From assembly GCA_015654825.1 (NCBI GenBank), contig JAATGE010000058.1, forward strand, positions 1 to 13,382: a stretch of DNA of 13,382 nt, given 5' to 3'. How positions within the stretch are numbered: position 1 is the first letter of the stretch; every line of letters starts with the position of its first letter. Under the pieces are notes generated by a model. It did not search any database. It was given only the letters and a program-made list of their open reading frames with translations, and was not told the DNA's origin. The translations under genes and the position numbers were made by a program. This document shows, one piece after another, positions 302 through 13,103 of this stretch. The DNA is from Rhodospirillales bacterium. GTDB taxonomy: Bacteria; Pseudomonadota; Alphaproteobacteria; Acetobacterales; Acetobacteraceae.

Positions 302-919
302 TCACGTCACCAGCGCAAAGCCGCCCATCATCAGGCCTACGGCTGCGATCCAGCTGCCGCAGGCGCGCAGCGCGATTGGCCGCCAGCCTTGAGCTTGCGC
401 CGTTGTGGTGGCGAGGAACGCCACTGATACGGCCATGGTCAGCGTCATGACGGCGTAGCCGGCGCTTGCGAGGCCCGCGGCGAACAGGGTTACGTTCGTT
501 TCGTGCCCCATGCCGCCGGCGTTGACGGCGCCGCGCATGAGGGCGACTGCCGCGCCGATGGCGCAGAGGCCCCATGTCGGGAGCGGCGCGGCGGCGGCGA
601 GCATCAGGCCGAGCAGCGCGGTCACTACGGCGTCGCCGAGGGTTCCGACCGATGTGATGCCGGTCGCCATGCCGAGTGCGAGCCCCGCGACGAGGCCGAG
701 CGGGAAGGTCAGCACGAGCCAGCGGCCGCGGGTGGCGCCGAGCGAGCCGGCGAGGACGCCGAGCGCCACCCAGAGGATGACGTCCTGCGGGTCGGTCATT
801 GGGTGCAGCGCGCCGGCGTAGAAATCGCCGAGGCGGGCGCCGACGATGTGGGCTTCGGCGCGTGGCGCCGAGACCAGAAGGGTGGCCGCGGCTAGTGCCG
901 CGGCGCGCAGCAGCTTCAT
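302..919 (-). CDS. Degenerate HupE/UreJ-family membrane protein
   Basis: A 205-residue membrane protein, last gene of the PPIase-HupE operon. Residues 1-23 form a signal peptide ending AEA, followed by AHIVGARLGDFYAGALHP and about six hydrophobic segments, the HupE/UreJ layout. HupE proteins are secondary metal permeases (nickel/cobalt type) of the inner membrane. The usual HPLTGLDH signature reads HPMTDPQD here (residues 39-46), so the second His is lost. The internal FHGHAHG-type motif is also replaced, by RGAVNAGGMGHETN. The gene may therefore not carry metal itself, or may act as a partner of its neighbour, which is also 205 residues long. I chose ATG 919 over an upstream in-frame extension because its first codon overlaps the preceding stop (ATGA) and it starts exactly at the signal peptide. 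Family call fairly sure; function open. Confidence 0.8.
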   Translation of the reverse strand: MKLLRAAALAAATLLVSAPRAEAHIVGARLGDFYAGALHPMTDPQDVILWVALGVLAGSLGATRGRWLVLTFPLGLVAGLALGMATGITSVGTLGDAVVTALLGLMLAAAAPLPTWGLCAIGAAVALMRGAVNAGGMGHETNVTLFAAGLASAGYAVMTLTMAVSVAFLATTTAQAQGWRPIALRACGSWIAAVGLMMGGFALVT

Positions 920-1533
920 GCCAGCGCCTCGAGCGAGCGGAACAGGAATATGCAGCCGAGGGTGGCGATCGCGACGCCGAGGCCGCGGATCAGCCGCTCG
1001 CCGGCGGGCCAGCGGAGCAGCGTGCCGATGGTGATGCCGCACAGGTGCAACAATCCGGTGGCGACGACGAATCCGATGCCGTAGGCGAGGGGGTTCGCCG
1101 CGTGGGGCAGTTCGGCGCCGTGCGCGTGGCCGTGGAAGATGGCGAAAATGCCGACCACGACGGCGGCCGCGGCGAAGGGCAGGCGCAGGCGCAGCGCGAC
1201 CGCGGCGCCGAGCACGACGGCTGACAGCGCAATGAATACTTCGGGCAGCGGCAACGGAACGCCGGCGATACCGAGGACGCCGCCGAACGCCATGACCAGG
1301 GGGAAGGTGACCGGCAGCACCCAGATGGCGGGCATGCCGAGTTGCGCGCCCCAGATGCCGACCGCGACCATGGCGATCAGGTGGTCGAGGCCGGTCAGCG
1401 GATGCAGGAAGCCGCTTGCGAGGCCGCCTGGCACGCCGACCTGCGTGTGCGCGGCGGCGTGGCCGGTGAGCATCAGCAGGACCGCGAGCGCCAATCCGGG
1501 ACGCGCGAGATACCGTTTCATAGATGTTGTCAT
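916..1533 (-). CDS. hupE: HupE/UreJ-family metal permease
   Basis: A 205-residue inner-membrane protein with all HupE/UreJ hallmarks. It has a signal peptide (about residues 1-28, ending GHAAA), the metal-binding signature GFLHPLTGLDHLIAM (H44, D50, H51) in the first core helix, FHGHAHGAELP (H134, H136, H138) in a later helix, and H163. HupE proteins import Ni2+ (some Co2+), classically to supply hydrogenase or urease, but neither enzyme is present in this window. The start at ATG 1533 is preferred: GAGAG lies about 7 bases upstream, and 10 bases separate it from the stop of the preceding gene. The alternative ATG at 1521 has no ribosome site. The gene overlaps the next by ATGA, implying translational coupling. 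Metal specificity cannot be read from the sequence. Confidence 0.9.
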   Translation of the reverse strand: MTTSMKRYLARPGLALAVLLMLTGHAAAHTQVGVPGGLASGFLHPLTGLDHLIAMVAVGIWGAQLGMPAIWVLPVTFPLVMAFGGVLGIAGVPLPLPEVFIALSAVVLGAAVALRLRLPFAAAAVVVGIFAIFHGHAHGAELPHAANPLAYGIGFVVATGLLHLCGITIGTLLRWPAGERLIRGLGVAIATLGCIFLFRSLEALA

Positions 1534-1543
1534 TGGCTTGCTC

Positions 1544-2524
1544 TCATGCCTGGGTGAAGACGCGGACCAGCCGGCCAAGAAACCAGAACATGGCGACGGT
1601 TCCGATCGCGTAGGCGGGGATCAGATTTCCCCAGCGCGGCAGTACCGCGTTGAGACGGCGGTGGGCCCACATCAGTGCCAGGACCAGCAGCACGAAGCCG
1701 AGCTGGCCGATTTCGACACCGATATTGAAGGACAGGAGCGCTGCGGGCAGCACGCGGCGCTCGATGCCGAGGGAGGACAGTGCGCCGGCGAAACCGATGC
1801 CGTGCACCAGGCCGAACACCAGCGAAACGGCCCAGGGATAGCGCGATGTCAGCCCGGTTTCGCCGCGGTACTCGCGGACGATTTCGACGCCGATGAAAAC
1901 GATGCTCAATGCGATGCAGGCATTCAGCGGGCGTTCCGGCACGCCGATCAGGCCGAAGGCGGCGGCGGCGAGCGACAGGCTGTGGCCGACGGTGAACATG
2001 GTGATCGTTTCGACCAGGCGCCAACCGCCGCGCACGATCCAGATCAACCCGAACACGAACAGCAGGTGATCGGCGCCGAGCAGGATATGATCGATTCCGA
2101 AATTGACGTAGGTATGGGCGAGGTCCAGCCAGCTTTGCAGGTTCGGCTGGCCGGTGCCGGCGATGGTTGCCGTGGGATTGGCGCTGGTCAGCGTGTAGCT
2201 GCGGGTTTCGCCGGTGATCGGCACGATGCGGATCATAACGGCCGACATGTTGAAGCCGAGATTGTCGATGCTGATGGTGCCGACGAGACCTTTGTCGCCG
2301 CAATTGAGCTCGGGGAGGGCAAGGTGGCAATGCGGCGGGACGCGCAGCTGCACGCGGTCGCCGCCGATGACCGGTTCCATCGACCAGCGGCCGACGAACG
2401 CGCCGGCGCGCACTTCGCGCAGTTCGAGCACGCCGAGGCTCGCTTCATGGGCGCGCGCGGCGAGCGGCAGCAGCCCCAGCAGCAGGAGCAGAACGAATGC
2501 CCAGGCGGTACGCATGGGCGTCAC
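1544..2524 (-). CDS. HupE/UreJ_2-family membrane protein with extracytoplasmic domain
   Basis: A 326-residue protein. Residues 1-25 are a signal peptide ending AARA. About 26-130 are a beta-rich extracytoplasmic stretch with two Cys (C66, C75) that could form a disulfide. From about 135 on there are six to seven membrane helices carrying FGIDHILLGADHLLF (H146, H153), TVGHSLSL (H181) and FGLVHGIGFAGAL (H241). That His pattern is the one seen in the HupE/UreJ_2 group, which usually sits beside other HupE genes and is thought to handle metal ions. The start is given as GTG 2524, whose GTGA overlaps the upstream stop; ATG 2515, three codons in, is equally possible. It is the second gene of the operon, between the PPIase and the classical HupE. 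Substrate unknown. Confidence 0.85.
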   Translation of the reverse strand: MTPMRTAWAFVLLLLLGLLPLAARAHEASLGVLELREVRAGAFVGRWSMEPVIGGDRVQLRVPPHCHLALPELNCGDKGLVGTISIDNLGFNMSAVMIRIVPITGETRSYTLTSANPTATIAGTGQPNLQSWLDLAHTYVNFGIDHILLGADHLLFVFGLIWIVRGGWRLVETITMFTVGHSLSLAAAAFGLIGVPERPLNACIALSIVFIGVEIVREYRGETGLTSRYPWAVSLVFGLVHGIGFAGALSSLGIERRVLPAALLSFNIGVEIGQLGFVLLVLALMWAHRRLNAVLPRWGNLIPAYAIGTVAMFWFLGRLVRVFTQA

Positions 2525-3420
2525 TGCTCGACGCGCACGGTGTAGGCCGCTTTCAGGCGGTTGACGGCTTCCCAGGCGCGTTTGCGGACGGCGTCGTCGT
2601 GCCAGATACGCGAGGCGTCATCGACGACGTCGTCGAGGCGCGCGAGTTTGCCGGGACGGTGGGAGTCGAGGCGCACGACGTGCCAGCCTTCCTTGGAGTG
2701 CAGCACGACCCACTGGTTGAGCGGGGCGGCGAGCAGGGCGTCGCGGAAATCGTTGCCGAACGCGGGACCGATGCTCTGCACCGGGCGGCCGAGTATGGCG
2801 CGGGTTTTCTGTTGCAGATCGGAGTCTTCGTGTTGCGATAGGATCTCCTGCAGCTGCTGGCGCGCTGTTGCCTCGTCGGTAGCTGGCGTCAGGTAGAAAC
2901 CGACGCGCTCGGGTTCGTCGAACCTGCCGTGGTTCTCGGCGAACCAGGCTTCGAGCTGCGGGCGGGTTGGGCGCGCGACCTGGGCCTGGTCGAAGATCAG
3001 CAATTGCAGCTTGTAGGCGATACGGTCGCGGATCATCTGGTCGCCGCGATCGACGCCGGCGGCCTTGCCTTCGCGGTACAGTATTTCGCTGGCGATCCAG
3101 CTATCGGTCATTTTCCGCAAATCGTCGGCGGAGGGGACGAGGTCGTGATCCTCGCTGAAGCCGTCTATGAAAGACTGGCGCAGCGCCTTGGTGACGACGA
3201 TGACATGGTCGTTTTTCGCCGGTGGATGCAGCCACGCATCGGCCGCGAAGATGAGGCCGGCCAGGACGCAGAAATGCACCAGCGGTTCCTGCCGGATGAA
3301 TTGCCAGGTGCGCCGCCACGCGGTGGCGGCGGGATCGCGGCTCTGGCGTTCGGCCGTGCTGGCTTCGCTGCGCAGGGCGCCCGCGGCCCTGAACGTCCGG
3401 AACAATGCTGTAGTATTCAA
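2521..3420 (-). CDS. Membrane-anchored parvulin-type peptidyl-prolyl cis-trans isomerase
   Basis: A 299-residue protein with one membrane anchor (about 46-64), so the rest most likely faces the periplasm. Residues 70-150 form a helical SurA/PpiD-like segment (SEILYREGKAAGV, IRDRIAYKLQLLI). Residues 165-265 resemble a Rotamase/PPIC domain, ending with FGNDFRDALLAAP and the typical KEGWHVVRLDSHRPG. Such proteins assist folding of exported proteins by proline isomerisation, or only bind clients. It is first in the minus-strand operon with the HupE-type genes and divergent from the exported PHP-like protein, an obvious candidate client. The start is the only in-frame candidate after an upstream stop: TTG 3420, preceded closely by AGGA. 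A slightly later start would also keep the anchor. Catalytic activity is not certain because the domain is divergent. Confidence 0.85.
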   Translation of the reverse strand: MNTTALFRTFRAAGALRSEASTAERQSRDPAATAWRRTWQFIRQEPLVHFCVLAGLIFAADAWLHPPAKNDHVIVVTKALRQSFIDGFSEDHDLVPSADDLRKMTDSWIASEILYREGKAAGVDRGDQMIRDRIAYKLQLLIFDQAQVARPTRPQLEAWFAENHGRFDEPERVGFYLTPATDEATARQQLQEILSQHEDSDLQQKTRAILGRPVQSIGPAFGNDFRDALLAAPLNQWVVLHSKEGWHVVRLDSHRPGKLARLDDVVDDASRIWHDDAVRKRAWEAVNRLKAAYTVRVEQ

Positions 3421-3526
3421 TATCCTGCTCTTGCATTCGGGGCTGCACGGCTTGCCCGGCTGCCCTGGTTCTCACGGGGGCAGGTCAGTGAAGCGATTGG
3501 CGGGCGATGTCACCTCGCAATCGGCG

Positions 3527-3596
3527 CGGTCACAAAAACTTCACAAAACTGGGATGCGGCGGCGGGGGCGGTTACGCGCTGTCACAAAACCGTCTC
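3527..3596 (+). promoter_or_regulatory. Two Pho-box-like direct-repeat sites
   Basis: Box 1 (3527-3555) reads CGGTCAC-AAAA-ACTTCAC, then AAAA-CTGGGAT: 7-base units separated by AAAA, an 11-base period. Box 2 (3579-3596) reads CTGTCAC-AAAA-CCGTCTC with the same period. The PhoB-binding site of proteobacteria is built as 7-base CTGTCAT-like repeats spaced by 4 AT-rich bases, so both fit well in form. They read in the direction of the plus-strand PHP-like gene, 103-172 bases before its start. A third GTCAC at 3509 is out of phase. PhoB control is an inference; another response regulator with tandem sites is possible. Confidence 0.5.
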
Positions 3597-3686
3597 GCTC
3601 TCTTCATCAAAAGCCCTTTGTTTGCCTATCGCCTGGGAGTTGGGCGCCTGTTACATGCCGGCCCGTGAGTTACTCTTCGTCAAATT

Positions 3687-3692
3687 CAGGAG
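3687..3692 (+). promoter_or_regulatory. Ribosome binding site that decides the GTG start
   Basis: CAGGAG-type Shine-Dalgarno sequence followed, 6 bases later, by GTG 3699. The next in-frame ATG (3723) would be 30 bases away from it, so the GTG is favoured. Confidence 0.6.
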
Positions 3693-3698
3693 CGCCCA

Positions 3699-5687
3699 GT
3701 GGCTGATACGAAAACCTTAACCATGAAGACCGCGGCGACCGTCGCGCTGGTCCTCGCAGCGGGCGGGGCGCAAGCAAACCCGTACGTTGCCGGCGACATG
3801 CATAACCATAATACGTGCACCGACGGTTCCGTATCGGTTGGCTACTCCGTCGACCGCGCGGTCGGCACCGGGCAGGCGCAGGCCGGCGGCTCCAATTTCG
3901 GGCTGGACTGGTTCACGATCGGCAACCATGGCGGTTCGGGCAACCGCGATTGCCGCTTCAGCGACCCGGCGTACGATCCCAATGGCACGCTCGGCGCCGA
4001 GAACGGCACCGCAACGAACCCGAACGGCACGCCGCGCGCGACGCTGTGGACCGATACGTTCGGCCAGACCATTCAGGGCACCACGGTGAACAGCCTGCTC
4101 GGCACGCCGAACGGCAACAACATGTGGCGCTGGCAGAATATCGAGCAGGTCGAATACCCGATCCTGGCCTCGCGCATTCCCGAGTACAACAAGACGCTGA
4201 TCGAGGGCCTGGAGTGGGTGACCCCCGGCCACGAGCATACCGACATGGCGATCATCACCGGCCAGTTCCCGAAGGCCGGCACGCCGAACGCCGATGCGGT
4301 TGCCGAGTTCGAGTTCCGCTTCGACCGTTCCGATAACGATGCCATCGGCCAGCTCGACGCGCAGGGCCACCAGCTGTGGACCGGCAAGGACAACGTCGAC
4401 AACAACGGCACGGCCGGCCACCTGAAGGCGGTGCAGGGCGTATCGTGGCTGCAGGCGTATTACCCGGTTACCTCGTACGCCATTCCGACCCATTCGGAGC
4501 GCGCTGGCACGTTCAACCCGAACGGCGCCAATGGCTGGAACATCGAGCATTTCCGCGACTTCAATAACGCCGGCCCGACGGTTGCTTTCGGCATCGAATC
4601 GCCTGGCCACATGGCGCAGGGCGGCATCAGCGGCGGCTCCGGCTCCTACACCACGGGCGCGGTCGGTGGCGGCACCTACGGCCTGCAGGGCATCTACACG
4701 GCCAAGGTCGGCGGATTGTGGGACGGGCTGCTGGGCGAGGGACGCAACTCCTTCATCTACGTGAGCTCTGACTGGCATAACCGCGGCGTGTTCCCGGCGA
4801 CTTCGGTCAACACGACGTCCGACTTCCAGCCTGGTGAAATGACCAAGCTGTATGTCGCGCAGAAATCCGATGGCACCGTCGTCGACCATACCACGGCGCA
4901 GGACGTCATCGACGGCATGCGTTCGGGCAACTCCTATTCGGTCAACGGCGACCTTATCGGCTCCGACCTCAAGATCACGGCGCGCGCCGGTTCCGGCAAG
5001 GCCGTAACGATGGGCGGCACGCTGGTCGTCAATCCCGGCGAAGTCATCACCTACACCATGCAGCTGACGCTGCCGGCTTCGAACCACAGCCCGTACAGCT
5101 TCAATAACCCGTTGCTGCTGCAGGATGGGATCAAGCAGCCGCTGAACCGTCCGGTGCTTGACCATATCGATCTGATCACCGGCGCGATCACCGGCCTGAT
5201 CGGTCCGGGCGAGCCGGGCTACGCGGTGCCGAATGCCGGCGGTGTTGCCGGTGCCTCGATCGTTTACAACCCCAGCGCGACCATCGCCCGCCAGCTTCCG
5301 CTTGCGGCTGGCAAGCGCATCAAGATCAACGCGGACGGCTCGATCTCGCTGGTGTTCAAGACCACCTTCACGGCACCGGCCACGCCGTTCTACATTCGTG
5401 CACGCGGCACGAACGTCCCTGTCGCCACGCCGAATGTGACCGACGCGTCGGGGAATCCGCTGATCGATGTGGATAACGCGCTGGTGCCCTGCACCGACCC
5501 TGCCTGCCCGGCCCACCTCGACGTCAACGGCAACGGCCAGAAGGTCGTTACTTACGACGTGCAGGCGTATTCCAACCTCTGGTTCTACGCCAACCCGATC
5601 TTCGTTCGCCCTGCGAACTACCCGACGCTGCAGGTCGAGAAGAACGCACTGCTCGCCAAGACGCTGAAGTCGAAGAAGCACCTCTAA
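3699..5687 (+). CDS. Exported PHP-fold-like metal-dependent hydrolase
   Basis: A 662-residue protein with an N-terminal signal peptide (MKTAATVALVLAAGGAQA at 9-26, cleavage before NPY). The mature part opens with GDMHNHNTCTDG (H35, H37), the HxH motif of PHP-type phosphoesterases. It continues with LDWFTIGNHG (D70, H77), EGLEWVTPGHEHTDM (E172, H178, H180), IPTHSE (H265), FGIESPGH (H304) and IYVSSDWHN (D358, H360). Taken in order these match the PHP ligand set for two or three metal ions. Residues about 420-662 form a beta-rich C-terminal part ending in a Lys-rich tail. It resembles the DUF3604/PHP group of exported proteins but I am not certain of the exact family, and the substrate is unknown. 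The gene has its own divergent control region with Pho-box-like repeats and is opposite a PPIase/HupE operon, suggesting assisted folding and metal supply. GTG start chosen from the strong ribosome site. Confidence 0.8.
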   Translation: MADTKTLTMKTAATVALVLAAGGAQANPYVAGDMHNHNTCTDGSVSVGYSVDRAVGTGQAQAGGSNFGLDWFTIGNHGGSGNRDCRFSDPAYDPNGTLGAENGTATNPNGTPRATLWTDTFGQTIQGTTVNSLLGTPNGNNMWRWQNIEQVEYPILASRIPEYNKTLIEGLEWVTPGHEHTDMAIITGQFPKAGTPNADAVAEFEFRFDRSDNDAIGQLDAQGHQLWTGKDNVDNNGTAGHLKAVQGVSWLQAYYPVTSYAIPTHSERAGTFNPNGANGWNIEHFRDFNNAGPTVAFGIESPGHMAQGGISGGSGSYTTGAVGGGTYGLQGIYTAKVGGLWDGLLGEGRNSFIYVSSDWHNRGVFPATSVNTTSDFQPGEMTKLYVAQKSDGTVVDHTTAQDVIDGMRSGNSYSVNGDLIGSDLKITARAGSGKAVTMGGTLVVNPGEVITYTMQLTLPASNHSPYSFNNPLLLQDGIKQPLNRPVLDHIDLITGAITGLIGPGEPGYAVPNAGGVAGASIVYNPSATIARQLPLAAGKRIKINADGSISLVFKTTFTAPATPFYIRARGTNVPVATPNVTDASGNPLIDVDNALVPCTDPACPAHLDVNGNGQKVVTYDVQAYSNLWFYANPIFVRPANYPTLQVEKNALLAKTLKSKKHL

Positions 5688-5736: not shown

Positions 5737-5780
5737 GGTCGGCCTTGTGGGTAATTCCACATAGGCCGACCTTGTTTTTT
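5737..5780 (+). terminator. Rho-independent terminator
   Basis: Stem GGTCGGCCT / AGGCCGACC (9 pairs), continued after a one-base bulge by TGTGG / CCACA around the loop GTAATT, then TTGTTTTTT. This is the classical form and ends the PHP-like transcript before the lipoprotein gene. Confidence 0.8.
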
Positions 5781-5789
5781 GAGGGCTGG

Positions 5790-6128
5790 ATGACGATGCG
5801 GCGAGCTACACGGACGGCATATGCGTGCCTGGCGTGTCTGGGCATGACGGTTTTGGTGTTCGGCTGCGCGGGTGCCGAAACGCTGCCGACGAAAGAGAAT
5901 TGCCGCGCCGCGATCGCGCATGCGCGCGTGCTGGCGAACCAGCTGGCCGTGGGCAGCATGTCGCGCCGCTTTGCCGATAGCGACCTGGTGCAGGCGGGGG
6001 CGGAAGGCGGCAACGGGGAGTTCGATGATTGCCTGGAATACGCGGCGAAAGCCGAGGACGAGGTGCGCCATCCGCACCATGGCCTGCCCGCCCCGCACAA
6101 GCCGCAACAGGAAGGACGGGGCAAATAA
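5790..6128 (+). CDS. Small putative lipoprotein, function unknown
   Basis: A 112-residue protein I do not recognise. It starts with a basic segment (MTMRRATR), a hydrophobic stretch and VLVFGC-AGAE, a passable lipobox with C26 as the lipid-bearing residue (Phe at -2 is unusual). If not lipidated it would still be exported. The mature part is mostly helical (ENCRAAIAHARVLANQLA, DDCLEYAAKAEDEV), with two further Cys (C38, C81) that could pair, and it ends in a His/Pro-rich tail (HPHHGLPAPHKPQQ). I start at ATG 5790 (second ATG at 5796) because the upstream in-frame ATG at 5745 lies inside the terminator stem; GAGGG precedes it at good distance. Its stop codon lies within the left end of the AT-rich repeat. 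Confidence 0.65.
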   Translation: MTMRRATRTAYACLACLGMTVLVFGCAGAETLPTKENCRAAIAHARVLANQLAVGSMSRRFADSDLVQAGAEGGNGEFDDCLEYAAKAEDEVRHPHHGLPAPHKPQQEGRGK

Positions 6129-6205
6129 CAAAAGTTTTTTGGTTCTTTTCTTCAAAAAAGAACAGACTTCTTTTTGAAAAAAGAAGCAAAAACTTTTGTA
6201 TATAA
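6124..6205 (+). repeat. AT-rich three-stem palindromic repeat, copy 1
   Basis: Outer arms CAAAAGTTTTT (6129-6139) and AAAAACTTTTG (6188-6198) are perfect inverted repeats. They enclose two hairpins: GTTCTTTT/AAAAGAAC (6142-6163) and CTTCTTTT/AAAAGAAG (6167-6186). The whole could fold as a three-way junction and is strikingly AT-rich in a GC-rich setting. The inner hairpins end in T-runs on both strands, so bidirectional termination is plausible. The right end runs into TATATAA (6199-6205), which with TTGAAA (6174-6179, spacing 19) is a possible promoter for the next gene. The inverted second copy is at 10477-10548. Confidence 0.85.
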
Positions 6206-6268: not shown

Positions 6269-6898
6269 GTGAGTATGGACCACGTCGAACCTTTGTTTCC
6301 GATTCCGCTGATGCGGGCGGAAGGCGTTCTTTCGGCCGAACTGGTGGCCGAGGCGGCCGCCGCGATACGCCATGCGCGGATTGAAAAGAACCTGCGATCG
6401 GACCAGCTGTTTCATTCCGAGGTGGCAAATCCAACGCAGGACCCGATCTTCCGCAAGCTGGCGGAGCTGGCGGTGCCGAAGCTGGAGGAACTCGGATTCC
6501 TGCTGTTCGGCGAGAGGCTGCGCTGGACGGTGAAGGAAATGTGGACGAACATGCTGGAAACCGGCGGCAGCCAGACGCTTCACGCCCACGCCAACAGCTT
6601 CATTTCCGGCGTCTATTACCTCACGCCATCGCACCCGGCCTGCAAGACCGTGTTTGTTCGGCCGCCCGGCGGGGGCGATTGGTCGTTCCGACACCATACC
6701 AGAACCGCTTCGATGGGGCCCTACAATGCCGGCAAATATATTCTGCCGAGCGCGGAGCCGGGCGACCTGGTGCTGTTTCCGAGCTATCTCTACCATGAAG
6801 TGCCGCGCAATCAGGGCGAGCAGAGGATTACGGCATCCTTCAACGCCATTCCGGACAGTCTCGATTGCTGGGGCTACCGTATTACCTTCACCCCGTGA
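6269..6898 (+). CDS. 2OG-Fe(II) oxygenase family protein (TIGR02466-like), first paralog
   Basis: A 209-residue cytoplasmic protein of the putative 2-oxoglutarate/Fe(II) dioxygenase group (2OG-FeII_Oxy_5, TIGR02466). Ligand motif LHAHANSFISGVYYL supplies H105 and H107. The distal motif PGDLVLFPSYLYHEVPRN supplies H176, and R186 in QRITASFNA is the expected 2-oxoglutarate-binding Arg. This family uses H-x-H where most relatives have H-x-D. The enzymes hydroxylate or otherwise oxidise an unknown target using oxygen and 2-oxoglutarate. Start GTG 6269 or ATG 6275; both have a weak ribosome site, and I give the longer form. It overlaps the next paralog by GTGA, so the two are surely co-translated. 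Confidence 0.85.
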   Translation: MSMDHVEPLFPIPLMRAEGVLSAELVAEAAAAIRHARIEKNLRSDQLFHSEVANPTQDPIFRKLAELAVPKLEELGFLLFGERLRWTVKEMWTNMLETGGSQTLHAHANSFISGVYYLTPSHPACKTVFVRPPGGGDWSFRHHTRTASMGPYNAGKYILPSAEPGDLVLFPSYLYHEVPRNQGEQRITASFNAIPDSLDCWGYRITFTP

Positions 6899-7554: not shown

Positions 7555-7566
7555 AAGGAAAGATCA

Positions 7567-7627
7567 GGCTAGGGGCTTTGCCCCTAGGACCCCACTGGGG
7601 CCTTAGGCCCCAGACCCCAATTTTGTT
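7567..7627 (+). terminator. GC-rich double-hairpin repeat, copy A (terminator-like)
   Basis: Two hairpins in tandem: CTAGGGGC-TTT-GCCCCTAG (7569-7587) and CTGGGGCC-TTA-GGCCCCAG (7595-7613), then ACCCCAATTTTGTT. It lies 12 bases after the dioxygenase pair and probably terminates it. It is identical at 60 of 61 positions to the copy at 13043-13103. Confidence 0.75.
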
Positions 7628-7804: not shown

Positions 7805-10408
7805 TCACGGTAATCCAAGTTCGGTGATCATGTCGCGTGCTTCCGGACGGGAAGGTGCCGCCGCATCGATTTGATGCAGCAGCCGGGCCGATGCCGCGCG
7901 ATCGTCGGCGGCGAGCATGCGGGCCATGCTGAGTAGCGGCTGGTAGGCGGGATCGAATTCCGGGCTGAGTTTAACGGTGTCGAGCAGGCCTGGCGATGCG
8001 GCATCGACCAGGGCCATGCCGCGCGGCGCGCCGTGCAGCGATGCACCGGCTTGCAGGAAACGATCGCGGGCCTGCCAGTAGGCATTCAAACGGGGGGCCC
8101 ATTCGGCTATGGCGCCGCCGGCGAGGATTTCGCTCGCATCAGGATGCACCGCGCCGATCAGCGTCAGCAGCAGCGCTGCGCGAGGTGCATCGAGCGCGCG
8201 GACGTTTCGCCGTGCATCGAGCGCCACGGCGGGAAAATCATCGGTGTTGAGCGGCGCATCGCCGGCGAATGCCGCCAGGCTTTTTGGGCCGGCCACGAAT
8301 TGACCGAGCAGATCGATCGGGTGTGCGAGACCGACCGGTGCGAGCACGCGGGCCGATGCGGGTTGGGTCAGGCGGACCGCCAGCGCGGCCGGATCGATCA
8401 CCAGCGGGCCACGAGCGCCGATCAGCGCGAGCATCGGGGTCGCGACGCTGTAATGGTTGAGCCATGCCGAGCCCTGGGGATACACGGCGAGGAAGCTGCG
8501 GACGATGGTGCGCAGCGACGGCAGATCAAGCTGGTACAGCGGCAGCCATTGGCAGAAAATACCGTCGGGCGCCAGGATATTGCGAATCGCGGCGAAGTGC
8601 TCGGTGGTGTAGAGCGCGCCGCTGCCATCCAGCGCGGGGTGGTACAGATCGGCAATCACCATGTCGTACTGGCGATTATCGGCGGCGACGTAGCGCCGTG
8701 CGTCGGCGACGGTTACCGGCGGGGCCAGGCCTGCGTTCGGATCGGCGAAGCGCGGCAGCAGGGCCGCTACTTCGGGCGACAATTCGACACCGTGCACGTT
8801 GACGCCTGGCATCTGTGCGCCGCCGACCAGGGTGGCACCGGTGCCGACGCCGAGGAACAGCGCCGTATGCGGTGCGGCGTGCAGCAGCAGCGGCACCATT
8901 GCCTGGCGATAATCGGACCGCATCGAGCTTGTGCCGCCCATGCGGAAATGACCGTTCACTTCGAGGTAGCGCGCACCGGATGCGTCATCGACGACGCTCG
9001 CGGTGGCCATTGGCCCTTCGCGCATGGCGATCAGCGCGCCGCCTTCCGGCACCCGGACCAGCGACGGCGCCGGATGTAAAACCAGGAAGATGCCGAGCAG
9101 CGCAGGGACCGTGCCCCAGGCGATGGCGGAGCGGCGCCATGGGACGAGCGCCAGGTATCCCAGCCCGACCGGCAATAACGCGGCCCACGCGCCGAACGCC
9201 GGAATGAGTATCAGCGAGGCCGCTGCTGGAGCGATGGCCGCGCCGAGGCTGTTGACGCCGACTGCCCAGCCGGGCGAGCCATTCCGATCGCGGACCGATT
9301 GGGCGAGATGGCTGAACAGGGCGCCAATCGCGGCGGATGGCAGCAGCAGCAGGGCCATCGCTACCGCGAGTTCGCCGGCGATGCCCCATGTGGCGGCCGC
9401 GTCGGCGATGTGGGCGATGGAAGGGGTCAGCCAGGCCGCGGCGAGGCATGCGAAGGATGTTGATGCCAGCAGCCAGGTTGCGCTGGCGGCGCGTATCCGG
9501 GGCCCGGCGAATTGCCATGCGATGCCGCCCGCCGCGGTGCCGAGCAGGTAGGCGGCGAGCAGGCCGGCGAAGGTGTAGATCGTGTCCTGCAACACTTGCG
9601 CTGCGAGGCGGACCACGATGACTTCGAAGCCGACGCCGAGCAGGCCGGTCGCGAACAGGGTTGCCGCGAGACGTGCTTCGCCCGGGCGCGTGCCGAGCAT
9701 CCGCTGCCTATCGGGCGCCTGGGGCAGCGATTTTCCGGGCGGGCCGAATGCCAGGGCGGCGAGCGCGCATATGAAGTTCAAAGCTGCCAGCGTCAGCAGG
9801 CTTCCCGACAGGCCGAACGCCGGCAGCAGAACGAACGCCGCAGCCAGGGTGCCGGCGACGGCGCCGGCGGTGTTGCCGCCATAGACGCCGGCGGTGACGC
9901 GGGGATTGCCGCCGGCCAGCACCATCATGCGGTCCAGCGCCGCCAGTGTGCCGCCCATGGCGATTGTTGCCGGCAGCAGCACGAGGGCGGGCAATGCGAA
10001 CCCGGCGGCCCACAGCAGCGCGGGAGCCGGATGGGTGCCCAGCAGCGGCGGCAGCGCCCGGCCGGCGGCGGGCAGCACGAAAACGCTGATGGCGCCCCAG
10101 GCGCCGATCACCGCTTCGAGCAGCGCATAGGCGGCGCGGGGCGAGTGTGCGCGGCGGATCGGCCTGTCCAAAACGAAGGCGCCCAATGCGAGGCCGCCGA
10201 AAAATCCGGCGACGACGCCGAGGACCGCCATCATTTCCGTGCCGAGCGCCAGGCTCAGCATGCGCGTCCAGACGATTTCATAGCCGAGGCCGGCAAAGCC
10301 GGAACCGGCAAGAACAGGGATCAGGGCCCAGGCGCGCCAGTTCGCGCGATTGTTGTCTATTGCCACCGGTCGTTGCATCGCGCCCTGGCTGCCGCCCGTT
10401 CTATCCAT
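7805..10408 (-). CDS. Polytopic membrane protein fused to a spermidine-synthase-like domain
   Basis: An 867-residue protein of the fused transporter/spermidine synthase-like type. About residues 30-445 hold twelve or more hydrophobic helices, beginning with SGFAGLGYEIVWTRML, typical of this family. Residues about 460-665 are an aminopropyltransferase-like Rossmann domain: LFLGVGTGATLVGG (nucleotide loop), GVELSPEVAALLP (acidic ribose-binding E542), VADARRYV, and YDMVIADLYHPAL with the aspartate D586 in the catalytic position. LNTDDFPAVALDAR and a helical tail follow. Whether it makes a polyamine is unknown; the substrate could be a membrane or exported molecule. ATG 10408 has AGAGAG upstream and is preferred; ATG 10378 and TTG 10471 are alternatives. 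It stands alone, separated from the upstream gene by the AT-rich repeat. Confidence 0.85.
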   Translation of the reverse strand: MDRTGGSQGAMQRPVAIDNNRANWRAWALIPVLAGSGFAGLGYEIVWTRMLSLALGTEMMAVLGVVAGFFGGLALGAFVLDRPIRRAHSPRAAYALLEAVIGAWGAISVFVLPAAGRALPPLLGTHPAPALLWAAGFALPALVLLPATIAMGGTLAALDRMMVLAGGNPRVTAGVYGGNTAGAVAGTLAAAFVLLPAFGLSGSLLTLAALNFICALAALAFGPPGKSLPQAPDRQRMLGTRPGEARLAATLFATGLLGVGFEVIVVRLAAQVLQDTIYTFAGLLAAYLLGTAAGGIAWQFAGPRIRAASATWLLASTSFACLAAAWLTPSIAHIADAAATWGIAGELAVAMALLLLPSAAIGALFSHLAQSVRDRNGSPGWAVGVNSLGAAIAPAAASLILIPAFGAWAALLPVGLGYLALVPWRRSAIAWGTVPALLGIFLVLHPAPSLVRVPEGGALIAMREGPMATASVVDDASGARYLEVNGHFRMGGTSSMRSDYRQAMVPLLLHAAPHTALFLGVGTGATLVGGAQMPGVNVHGVELSPEVAALLPRFADPNAGLAPPVTVADARRYVAADNRQYDMVIADLYHPALDGSGALYTTEHFAAIRNILAPDGIFCQWLPLYQLDLPSLRTIVRSFLAVYPQGSAWLNHYSVATPMLALIGARGPLVIDPAALAVRLTQPASARVLAPVGLAHPIDLLGQFVAGPKSLAAFAGDAPLNTDDFPAVALDARRNVRALDAPRAALLLTLIGAVHPDASEILAGGAIAEWAPRLNAYWQARDRFLQAGASLHGAPRGMALVDAASPGLLDTVKLSPEFDPAYQPLLSMARMLAADDRAASARLLHQIDAAAPSRPEARDMITELGLP

Positions 10409-10476
10409 GCGGCTCTCTGTGTCCGAGTTTGCCGATCGGCTCAAGGGCGGATCGCGTCTTCCGAGGGTCAATGAAC

Positions 10477-10548
10477 CAAGTTTTTGCTTCTTTTTTCAAA
10501 AAGAAGTCTGTTCTTTTTTGAAAAAAAGAACCAAAAAACTTTTGTTAT
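10477..10548 (-). repeat. AT-rich three-stem palindromic repeat, copy 2
   Basis: Inverted copy of the element at 6124-6205. Inner hairpins GTTCTTTT/AAAAGAAC (10510-10531) and CTTCTTTT/AAAAGAAG (10487-10506) are kept. The outer stem is 8 pairs rather than 11 because two A residues are missing at one end. Read on the minus strand it follows the small membrane gene and precedes the spermidine-synthase-like gene, the same polarity (upstream stop, element, downstream start) as copy 1. Confidence 0.85.
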
Positions 10549-10556
10549 TTTGGTCC

Positions 10557-13022: not shown

Positions 13023-13042
13023 GGGGGGGTGTTTCGATGGAA

Positions 13043-13103
13043 GGCTAGGGGCTTTGCCCCTAGGACCCCGCTGGGGCCTTAGGCCCCAGACCCCAATTTT
13101 GTT
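13043..13103 (+). terminator. GC-rich double-hairpin repeat, copy C (terminator-like)
   Basis: Same two hairpins as copy A, CTAGGGGC-TTT-GCCCCTAG and CTGGGGCC-TTA-GGCCCCAG, then ACCCCAATTTTGTT; one substitution (G for A in the linker) in 61 bases. It starts 21 bases after the oxidoreductase stop and probably ends that transcript. Confidence 0.75.

Follow-up and report, generated by a model that had tools for sequence, protein, structure and literature searches.

The window, the entire 13,382-nt stretch analysed here (contig JAATGE010000058.1 of an Acetobacteraceae genome, assembly GCA_015654825.1), encodes a predicted exported PHP-type metallohydrolase, divergent from a membrane-anchored peptidyl-prolyl isomerase (PPIase)-like protein and three HupE-type proteins (Table 1). 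Open reading frame coordinates confirmed these five genes where an earlier, sequence-only reading of the window had placed them. That reading overlooked three further conserved genes, for a small secreted protein, a 2-oxoglutarate (2OG)-Fe(II) oxygenase (oxyA) and a membrane protein fused to a spermidine-synthase-like S-adenosylmethionine (SAM) domain, here termed spdsyn. The three HupE proteins and the PPIase exceeded the curated Pfam cut-offs, which bears out their assignment to the HupE/UreJ family and to the parvulin-type PPIases. The 3′ end of HupE2 overlaps the start of HupE3, and the PPIase gene is coupled to HupE1. Hydrogenase and urease genes had been reported absent; accordingly, we found no NiFe-hydrogenase match and a lone urease-alpha match of 21.5 bits, below the cut-off of 23, in a genome that is 66% complete.

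Table 1 Positions of genes and promoter sites in the window
Feature	Position	Strand	Remarks
HupE3	302-919	-	Pfam HupE_UreJ, 50 bits; conservation in 40 sequences
HupE2	916-1521	-	Pfam HupE_UreJ, 192 bits; motifs kept in 39 sequences
HupE1	1544-2515 or 2524	-	Pfam HupE_UreJ_2, 157 bits; start ATG 2515 or GTG 2524
PPIase-like protein	2521-3420	-	Pfam Rotamase_2, 42 bits (cut-off 27); in 36/36 full-flank loci
Pho-box-like site CGGTCACAAAAACTTCACAA	3527-3546	+	11-bp direct repeat
Pho-box-like site CTGTCACAAAACCGTCTCGC	3579-3598	+	16.2 bits, pstS-trained matrix
Exported PHP-type metallohydrolase (CehA/McbA-like)	3699-5687	+	Beta domain at the C-terminus; true start possibly the internal ATG 3723
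Small secreted protein, two conserved Cys (C53, C96)	5745-6128	+	Half-length or longer match in 36/45 other loci
2OG-Fe(II) oxygenase oxyA (2OG-FeII_Oxy_5)	6269-6898	+	Pfam, 82 bits
Second 2OG-Fe(II) oxygenase oxyB, TIGR02466	6865-7554	+	Family models and locus comparison
spdsyn, membrane protein fused to spermidine-synthase-like SAM domain	7805-10471	-	Pfam, 25 bits (cut-off 22.9); NCBIfam MFS_SpdSyn, 54.8 (cut-off 40)

The PHP-type protein from the window matched no Pfam family at E 0.001, and DUF3604 (PF12228) in particular gave no match at E 0.001 or 0.1. Aligned with 32 other hand-chosen sequences, it shares invariant residues D33, H35, H37, D42, H77, E172, H265, D358 and H360, in the motif order D-x-H-x-H...D, then H, E, H and D-x-H of PHP proteins. 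The set of PHP-like metal ligands listed in the sequence-only reading therefore stands for H35, H37, H77, E172, H265, D358 and H360; D70, also listed, is variable among the 33 sequences and was rejected as a ligand. The NCBIfam CehA/McbA model (NF038032) was matched by 31 of the 33 at E ≤0.01, and Pfam PHP by four at E 0.1 (best 5.8e-8). The likeness to CehA/McbA lies in the PHP-type motifs and in these family-wide matches, whereas the window protein itself scored 24.4 bits, far under the curated cut-off of 80. For this reason we describe it as CehA/McbA-like and not as a member of that family.

Compared with solved structures, the profile of the 33 sequences matched 2anu (E 8e-7) and 3e38 (E 0.0013), and the first motif stretch (D33-D42) aligns with both of these PHP proteins. 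A second look at the structure comparison revealed the PHP beta/alpha fold. Foldseek by itself returned nothing from the PDB at E ≤0.001, the rows shown being mostly antibody-like, and phmmer with the single protein returned only 18 weak matches in the PDB (Runt domains and one diatom protein). The assignment to the PHP superfamily is firm. The fold match and the motif alignment together imply that the conserved residues would share one site, and phosphoesterase activity is a plausible prediction for the protein.

We scanned genomes for the PHP protein and retained the best 80 of 101 stretches, representing 74 loci, to which one plasmid locus was added. The window proteins were then mapped onto these loci by tblastn (E 1e-4 for partners of distant homologs). 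Loci were counted as full-flank when the PHP match had 4.3 kb of sequence before it and 5 kb behind it, a threshold of our choosing; seven loci and the window fell short of it, limited by contig ends or window edges. The same order and orientation was found in 33 of 36 full-flank loci, with HupE3-HupE2-HupE1-PPIase on the minus strand, PHP-small secreted protein-oxygenase on the plus strand and spdsyn on the minus strand. The three exceptions, from a Burkholderiaceae (L042), a Woeseiaceae (L043) and a Comamonadaceae plasmid (L076), are rearranged and retain the core of PHP, PPIase, HupE1, oxygenase and spdsyn, which is hence present in 36/36. All five core genes point in the same direction in L042 and L076. 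The window holds all eight genes.

The sequence-only reading had made its case depend on the neighbourhood recurring in other genomes, and the cluster is indeed kept far beyond the source genome, spread over unrelated soil bacteria. The conserved neighbourhood is real and larger than first reported. The PHP protein was found in none of 59 relatives of the window genome (0/49 among those at least 90% complete), so the module was probably acquired horizontally. Among 32 more distant PHP homologs (L044-L075), some on short contigs, no partner gene was matched by tblastn at E 1e-4. Two further Acetobacteraceae loci, L031 and L032, have similar content in a new order, with HupE2 inverted and spdsyn turned, as is the oxygenase in L031. 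In the open-access literature searched we found no account of the module, no paper joining HupE/UreJ with the PHP domain, peptidylprolyl isomerase or DUF3604, and none bringing together at least three of the topics Pho regulon, HupE, PHP domain, spermidine synthase and phosphate starvation.

A parallel arrangement exists around DUF3604. Two annotated plasmids (L077, L078) carry a DUF3604 gene followed by a PPIase and by three or one HupE genes. In a sample of 200 genomes from the phylum, 11 had DUF3604 and 42 had HupE_UreJ_2 above cut-off. We counted 18 of 21 DUF3604 places, dropping two extra pieces of one gene and one place below cut-off, and 59 of 70 HupE_UreJ_2 places, dropping 11 below cut-off and including the window's own and two halves of a broken gene. 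HupE_UreJ_2 lies within 5 kb of DUF3604 at 14 of the 18 places (10 of the 11 genomes; one of the 14, in G089, is a short fragment match), and in reverse 13 of 59 HupE_UreJ_2 places have DUF3604 nearby. At 10 of these 14 places the PPIase gene separates the two, and at one more it lies past a tandem second DUF3604 gene. A tandem DUF3604 pair upstream of PPIase and HupE is seen at G184 C3 194977-198560. In G164, a genome of the same class as the window genome, the DUF3604 protein is 89% identical to that of Rhizobium sp. N324, which makes the source of the window most likely an alphaproteobacterium.

Thirteen DUF3604 proteins share invariant HxH, D44, D88-H89, E176, H233 and D342-x-H344, so that these operons resemble the module in combining PPIase and HupE_UreJ_2 with a PHP-type protein whose ligand order is HxH, D, H, E, H, DxH. 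They differ in that the window protein has no DUF3604 match, in that no oxygenase or spdsyn of this kind was seen near L077 and L078, and in showing no Pho-box enrichment (see below). Aligned by hhalign, the window-family profile and the DUF3604 alignment matched at E 1.3e-5 over 97 C-terminal columns only; because only this stretch aligns, we do not claim common membership. A Rhizobium DUF3604 protein had no sequence match in the PDB at E 1. The conserved synteny and the parallel operons strongly support the proposal, already made in the sequence-only reading, of one module of secreted PHP hydrolase, membrane-anchored PPIase and HupE. The plasmid operons, with no oxygenase or SAM enzyme of this kind seen nearby, could also mean that two adjacent systems, PHP/PPIase/HupE and an oxygenase/SAM-enzyme modification system, travel together with no joint function. 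We regard this as improbable, given a five-gene core that stays intact in every full-flank locus despite rearrangement and is codirectional in two of them.

The HupE/UreJ family is marked by the motifs HX5DH and FHGxAHGxE. HupE2 carries both, the first as H40-x5-D46-H47, with an N-terminal His following the signal peptide, and HupE1 has only HX5DH. In HupE3, where the signal peptide ends ...AEA|H as judged by eye, H39 is kept and both motifs are degenerate, Q45-D46 replacing D-H in the first. HupE1 consists of a HupE_UreJ_2 permease preceded by an N-terminal periplasmic beta domain, and a His follows the predicted signal peptide in 43 of 43 sequences (cleavage site by eye). Its profile gave only two chance-level matches among PDB sequences. 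The signal peptide, N-terminal His and HupE_UreJ_2 membrane domain, along with a periplasmic beta domain that may correspond to Ang-1, are shared with the HupE/UreJ-2 anglerases (Ang-1 plus PF13795). Binding of Cu and Ni is published for a relative of the HupE1 N-domain (PMC12537917). HupE1 differs from these in its low identity to 9gce (11% in the structural alignment) and in its tie to a PHP hydrolase and a PPIase; the main text of that publication mentions no DUF3604, isomerase or phosphoesterase.

The PPIase has one N-terminal membrane anchor, identified by eye (EPLVHFCVLAGLIFAADAW). Active parvulins have a His in the first strand. The PPIase domain seems to be without it, and the protein may therefore be a chaperone rather than an isomerase.

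We searched for Pho boxes in 40 intergenic regions between PPIase and PHP, leaving out L042 because its PPIase lies downstream, with 587 mutually overlapping AT-matched windows from the flanks as controls; because ancestry is partly shared among the loci and among the control windows, these counts cannot be taken as independent trials. Using a matrix of eight E. coli Pho boxes, 36 of the 40 regions reached 8 bits compared to 5% of the controls, and 33 were significant against shuffles (p ≤0.05). A matrix-free count of [TG]TCA[CT] pairs in 25 dereplicated regions gave 11 at a spacing of 11 bp and no more than five at each of the other spacings between 5 and 30, while 400 kb of flanks held four such pairs at 11 bp, among counts of 1-24 that track the codon period. 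As a positive control we took pstS from 11 genomes, ten with module loci and the window's own, and 11 of 12 pstS upstream regions scored at least 9.3 bits. For the pstS of L141 a longer slice was scanned, and its site, about 200 bp before the pstS match, was recomputed by hand. The pstS site in the window genome is CTGTCACAAAAGCTTCACCC. A matrix trained on pstS found sites of at least 12 bits in 19/40 module regions versus 4/587 controls, and of at least 8 bits in 34/40 versus 43/587. Upstream regions of spdsyn and of a neighbouring TonB receptor (see below), scored without a control of their own, reached 10 bits in 14/40 and 5/23, respectively. Within the window, a looser pattern occurs once (3529-3544) and at least once in 43 of 200 shuffles, so the evidence from this single sequence is modest and its strength lies in conservation. 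Direct repeats of 11 bp thus precede the module operons, with exceptions given below, and predict that the module is likely under the control of PhoB.

These promoter sites lend support to the secreted phosphoesterase suggested in the sequence-only reading. The further suggestions of that reading, that the PPIase matures the PHP protein and that HupE supplies or senses the metal of the PHP protein, are hypothetical. The promoter sites also bear on a different view of the enzyme, in which it resembles CehA/McbA in being a carbamate hydrolase or an esterase for substrates other than phosphate, with the Pho-like sites incidental or controlling only part of the block. McbA is a demonstrated carbaryl hydrolase (PMC5141477), and nearly all of the aligned sequences match the CehA/McbA model. 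The subthreshold score of the window protein and the enrichment of Pho sites make this view unlikely.

We propose, with moderate confidence, that the locus is a horizontally transferred module for using an external phosphorus source under phosphate shortage by means of a predicted secreted PHP phosphoesterase. Binding of PhoB to the 11-bp repeats in the divergent intergenic region would activate the PHP operon and perhaps that of PPIase-HupE as well. The PHP-type enzyme would leave the cytoplasm via its signal peptide, and in some Bradyrhizobium perhaps travel onward through a neighbouring type II secretion system (T2SS). The membrane-anchored PPIase-like protein may aid its folding in the periplasm. 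HupE1, of the anglerase type, HupE2 and HupE3 may capture a transition metal at their N-terminal His, for the PHP enzyme or for the cell. The enzyme itself, with its PHP fold and ligands, would use a multinuclear metal site to hydrolyse a phosphate ester. Synteny places the oxygenase and the membrane SAM enzyme in the same unit, and a TonB receptor beside many copies may take up the product or a ligand.

Phosphatases secreted under the Pho regulon include PhoA, PhoX, PhoD and T2SS-secreted enzymes. The module resembles them in its exported metal-dependent enzyme, its Pho-box-like sites and the T2SS beside some loci, and differs in that their folds are unrelated to PHP. Phosphatases of these types are not known to have a dedicated permease/foldase module. 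If the proposal is true, many Bradyrhizobium and other soil bacteria have a new phosphorus-scavenging system, and HupE-type proteins have a role linked with exported metalloenzymes. It provides a testable context for HupE_UreJ_2 permeases, DUF3604 proteins and CehA/McbA-like PHP proteins, which are widespread and lack a settled role.

We next consider the genes flanking the module. One family of TonB-dependent receptors adjoins 24 of 45 loci, L042 and L076 included (tblastn E 1e-8), and at 14 of them the receptor gene lies 110-324 bp upstream of spdsyn and codirectional with it. The receptors (L005 15981-18182, L015 18558-20921, L042 3551-6463, L076 6615-8699 and 20 further loci) are about 41-50% identical where compared. 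In Bradyrhizobium sp. BTAi1 (L024, 1005-6052), T2SS genes (pseudopilin-like, K, L-like and M) directly adjoin HupE3, and by coordinates a gene for a secretin is located about 4 kb ahead of the locus. A protein of 215-218 residues directly follows K, L-like and M there. It recurs beside 21 of 45 loci, either close to HupE3 or some 8 kb past the start of PHP. No such TonB receptor was seen in the window and the remaining loci, some of which stop at contig ends, and neither the receptor nor the T2SS-linked protein was found in the sequence searched for the window and the gammaproteobacterial loci L004, L009 and L039. On the Comamonadaceae plasmid (CP099604.1, 6046-17708), the module is accompanied by a TonB receptor, a regulator of the NikR type and the copper chaperone PCu(A)C. 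Since many copies adjoin the TonB receptor or T2SS genes, we rejected sharp outer boundaries of the module.

These neighbours fit a secreted enzyme and the uptake of its product or of a ligand. They can also be read as a system for the acquisition or homeostasis of Cu, Ni or Co, in which the PHP enzyme would free the metal from an organic complex or process a TonB-imported metallophore, HupE would import the metal, and the oxygenase and SAM enzyme would make or modify the ligand. Three HupE-type proteins with a conserved N-terminal His, the metal-binding relative of the HupE1 N-domain, the frequent TonB receptor close upstream of spdsyn, and NikR and PCu(A)C on the plasmid all argue for such a role. 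The Pho-like promoter sites at most loci, and the window and other loci without the receptor, argue against it, and we hold it possible but on the unlikely side. Because these two fits pull in opposite ways, the neighbours leave the relative weight of the readings unchanged.

Several observations weigh against phosphorus scavenging under PhoB. The TonB receptors, together with NikR and PCu(A)C in L076, suggest that a metal or a ligand is taken up, and many of the loci come from Bradyrhizobium and are not independent. Strict TGTCA pairs show no peak at 11 bp (one at 11, three at 20), and many strong Bradyrhizobium sites start with TTGACAT and could partly be -35 boxes. The intergenic region of L076 scores 3.8 bits, without a site, and that of L043 is weak. 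Upstream regions of spdsyn hold only three pairs at 11 bp, and no site was found upstream of spdsyn in the window. We also scanned upstream of 29 of the 32 distant PHP homologs and of 16 of the 21 DUF3604 regions, with hand-estimated starts. The DUF3604 regions were control-like (14/16 below 5 bits, two at 9.6) and the distant relatives mostly low (2/29 reach 10 bits, 7/29 reach 8), and we rejected a Pho link common to all PHP relatives. Lastly, the activity described for HupE proteins is import into the cytoplasm, which alone would not load an enzyme that is exported.

A bolder version of the phosphorus-scavenging proposal is a self-contained machine for export and metallation. Here the anglerase-type HupE proteins would pick up metal in the periplasm and pass it on to the PHP phosphatase held by the membrane-anchored PPIase. 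PhoB would control the whole, and the oxygenase and SAM enzyme would modify a cofactor, ligand or lipid. Dedicated metal loading by HupE is a bold idea, and we consider this version doubtful. If the metal handover were true, it would also hold for the DUF3604/PPIase/HupE operons, and two hydrolase families would share one metal-loading device.

Finally, we turn to the other features of the window. The small secreted protein has no Pfam match at E 0.1. Comparison of 40 sequences each showed that H105, H107 and H176 of oxyA are at least 95% conserved and that the GxGTG and VEL stretches of spdsyn are conserved. Spermidine synthases carry an acidic motif at the position where spdsyn has DLYHP; its SAM-type motifs GxGTG and VELSPEV are kept. 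Among the loci compared, only the window and L043 (5837-6502) have oxyB next to the module. No riboswitch or other known RNA control matched the window at Rfam gathering scores. A 62-nt GC-rich palindromic repeat occurs twice (7566-7627 and 13042-13103, 98% alike); it had no plasmid match and is probably a repeated extragenic element of the window genome. A 73-nt element is likewise present twice, inverted and 99% alike (6123-6195 and 10478-10550), and the pair flanks the oxygenase/spdsyn part, with one copy just upstream of spdsyn.

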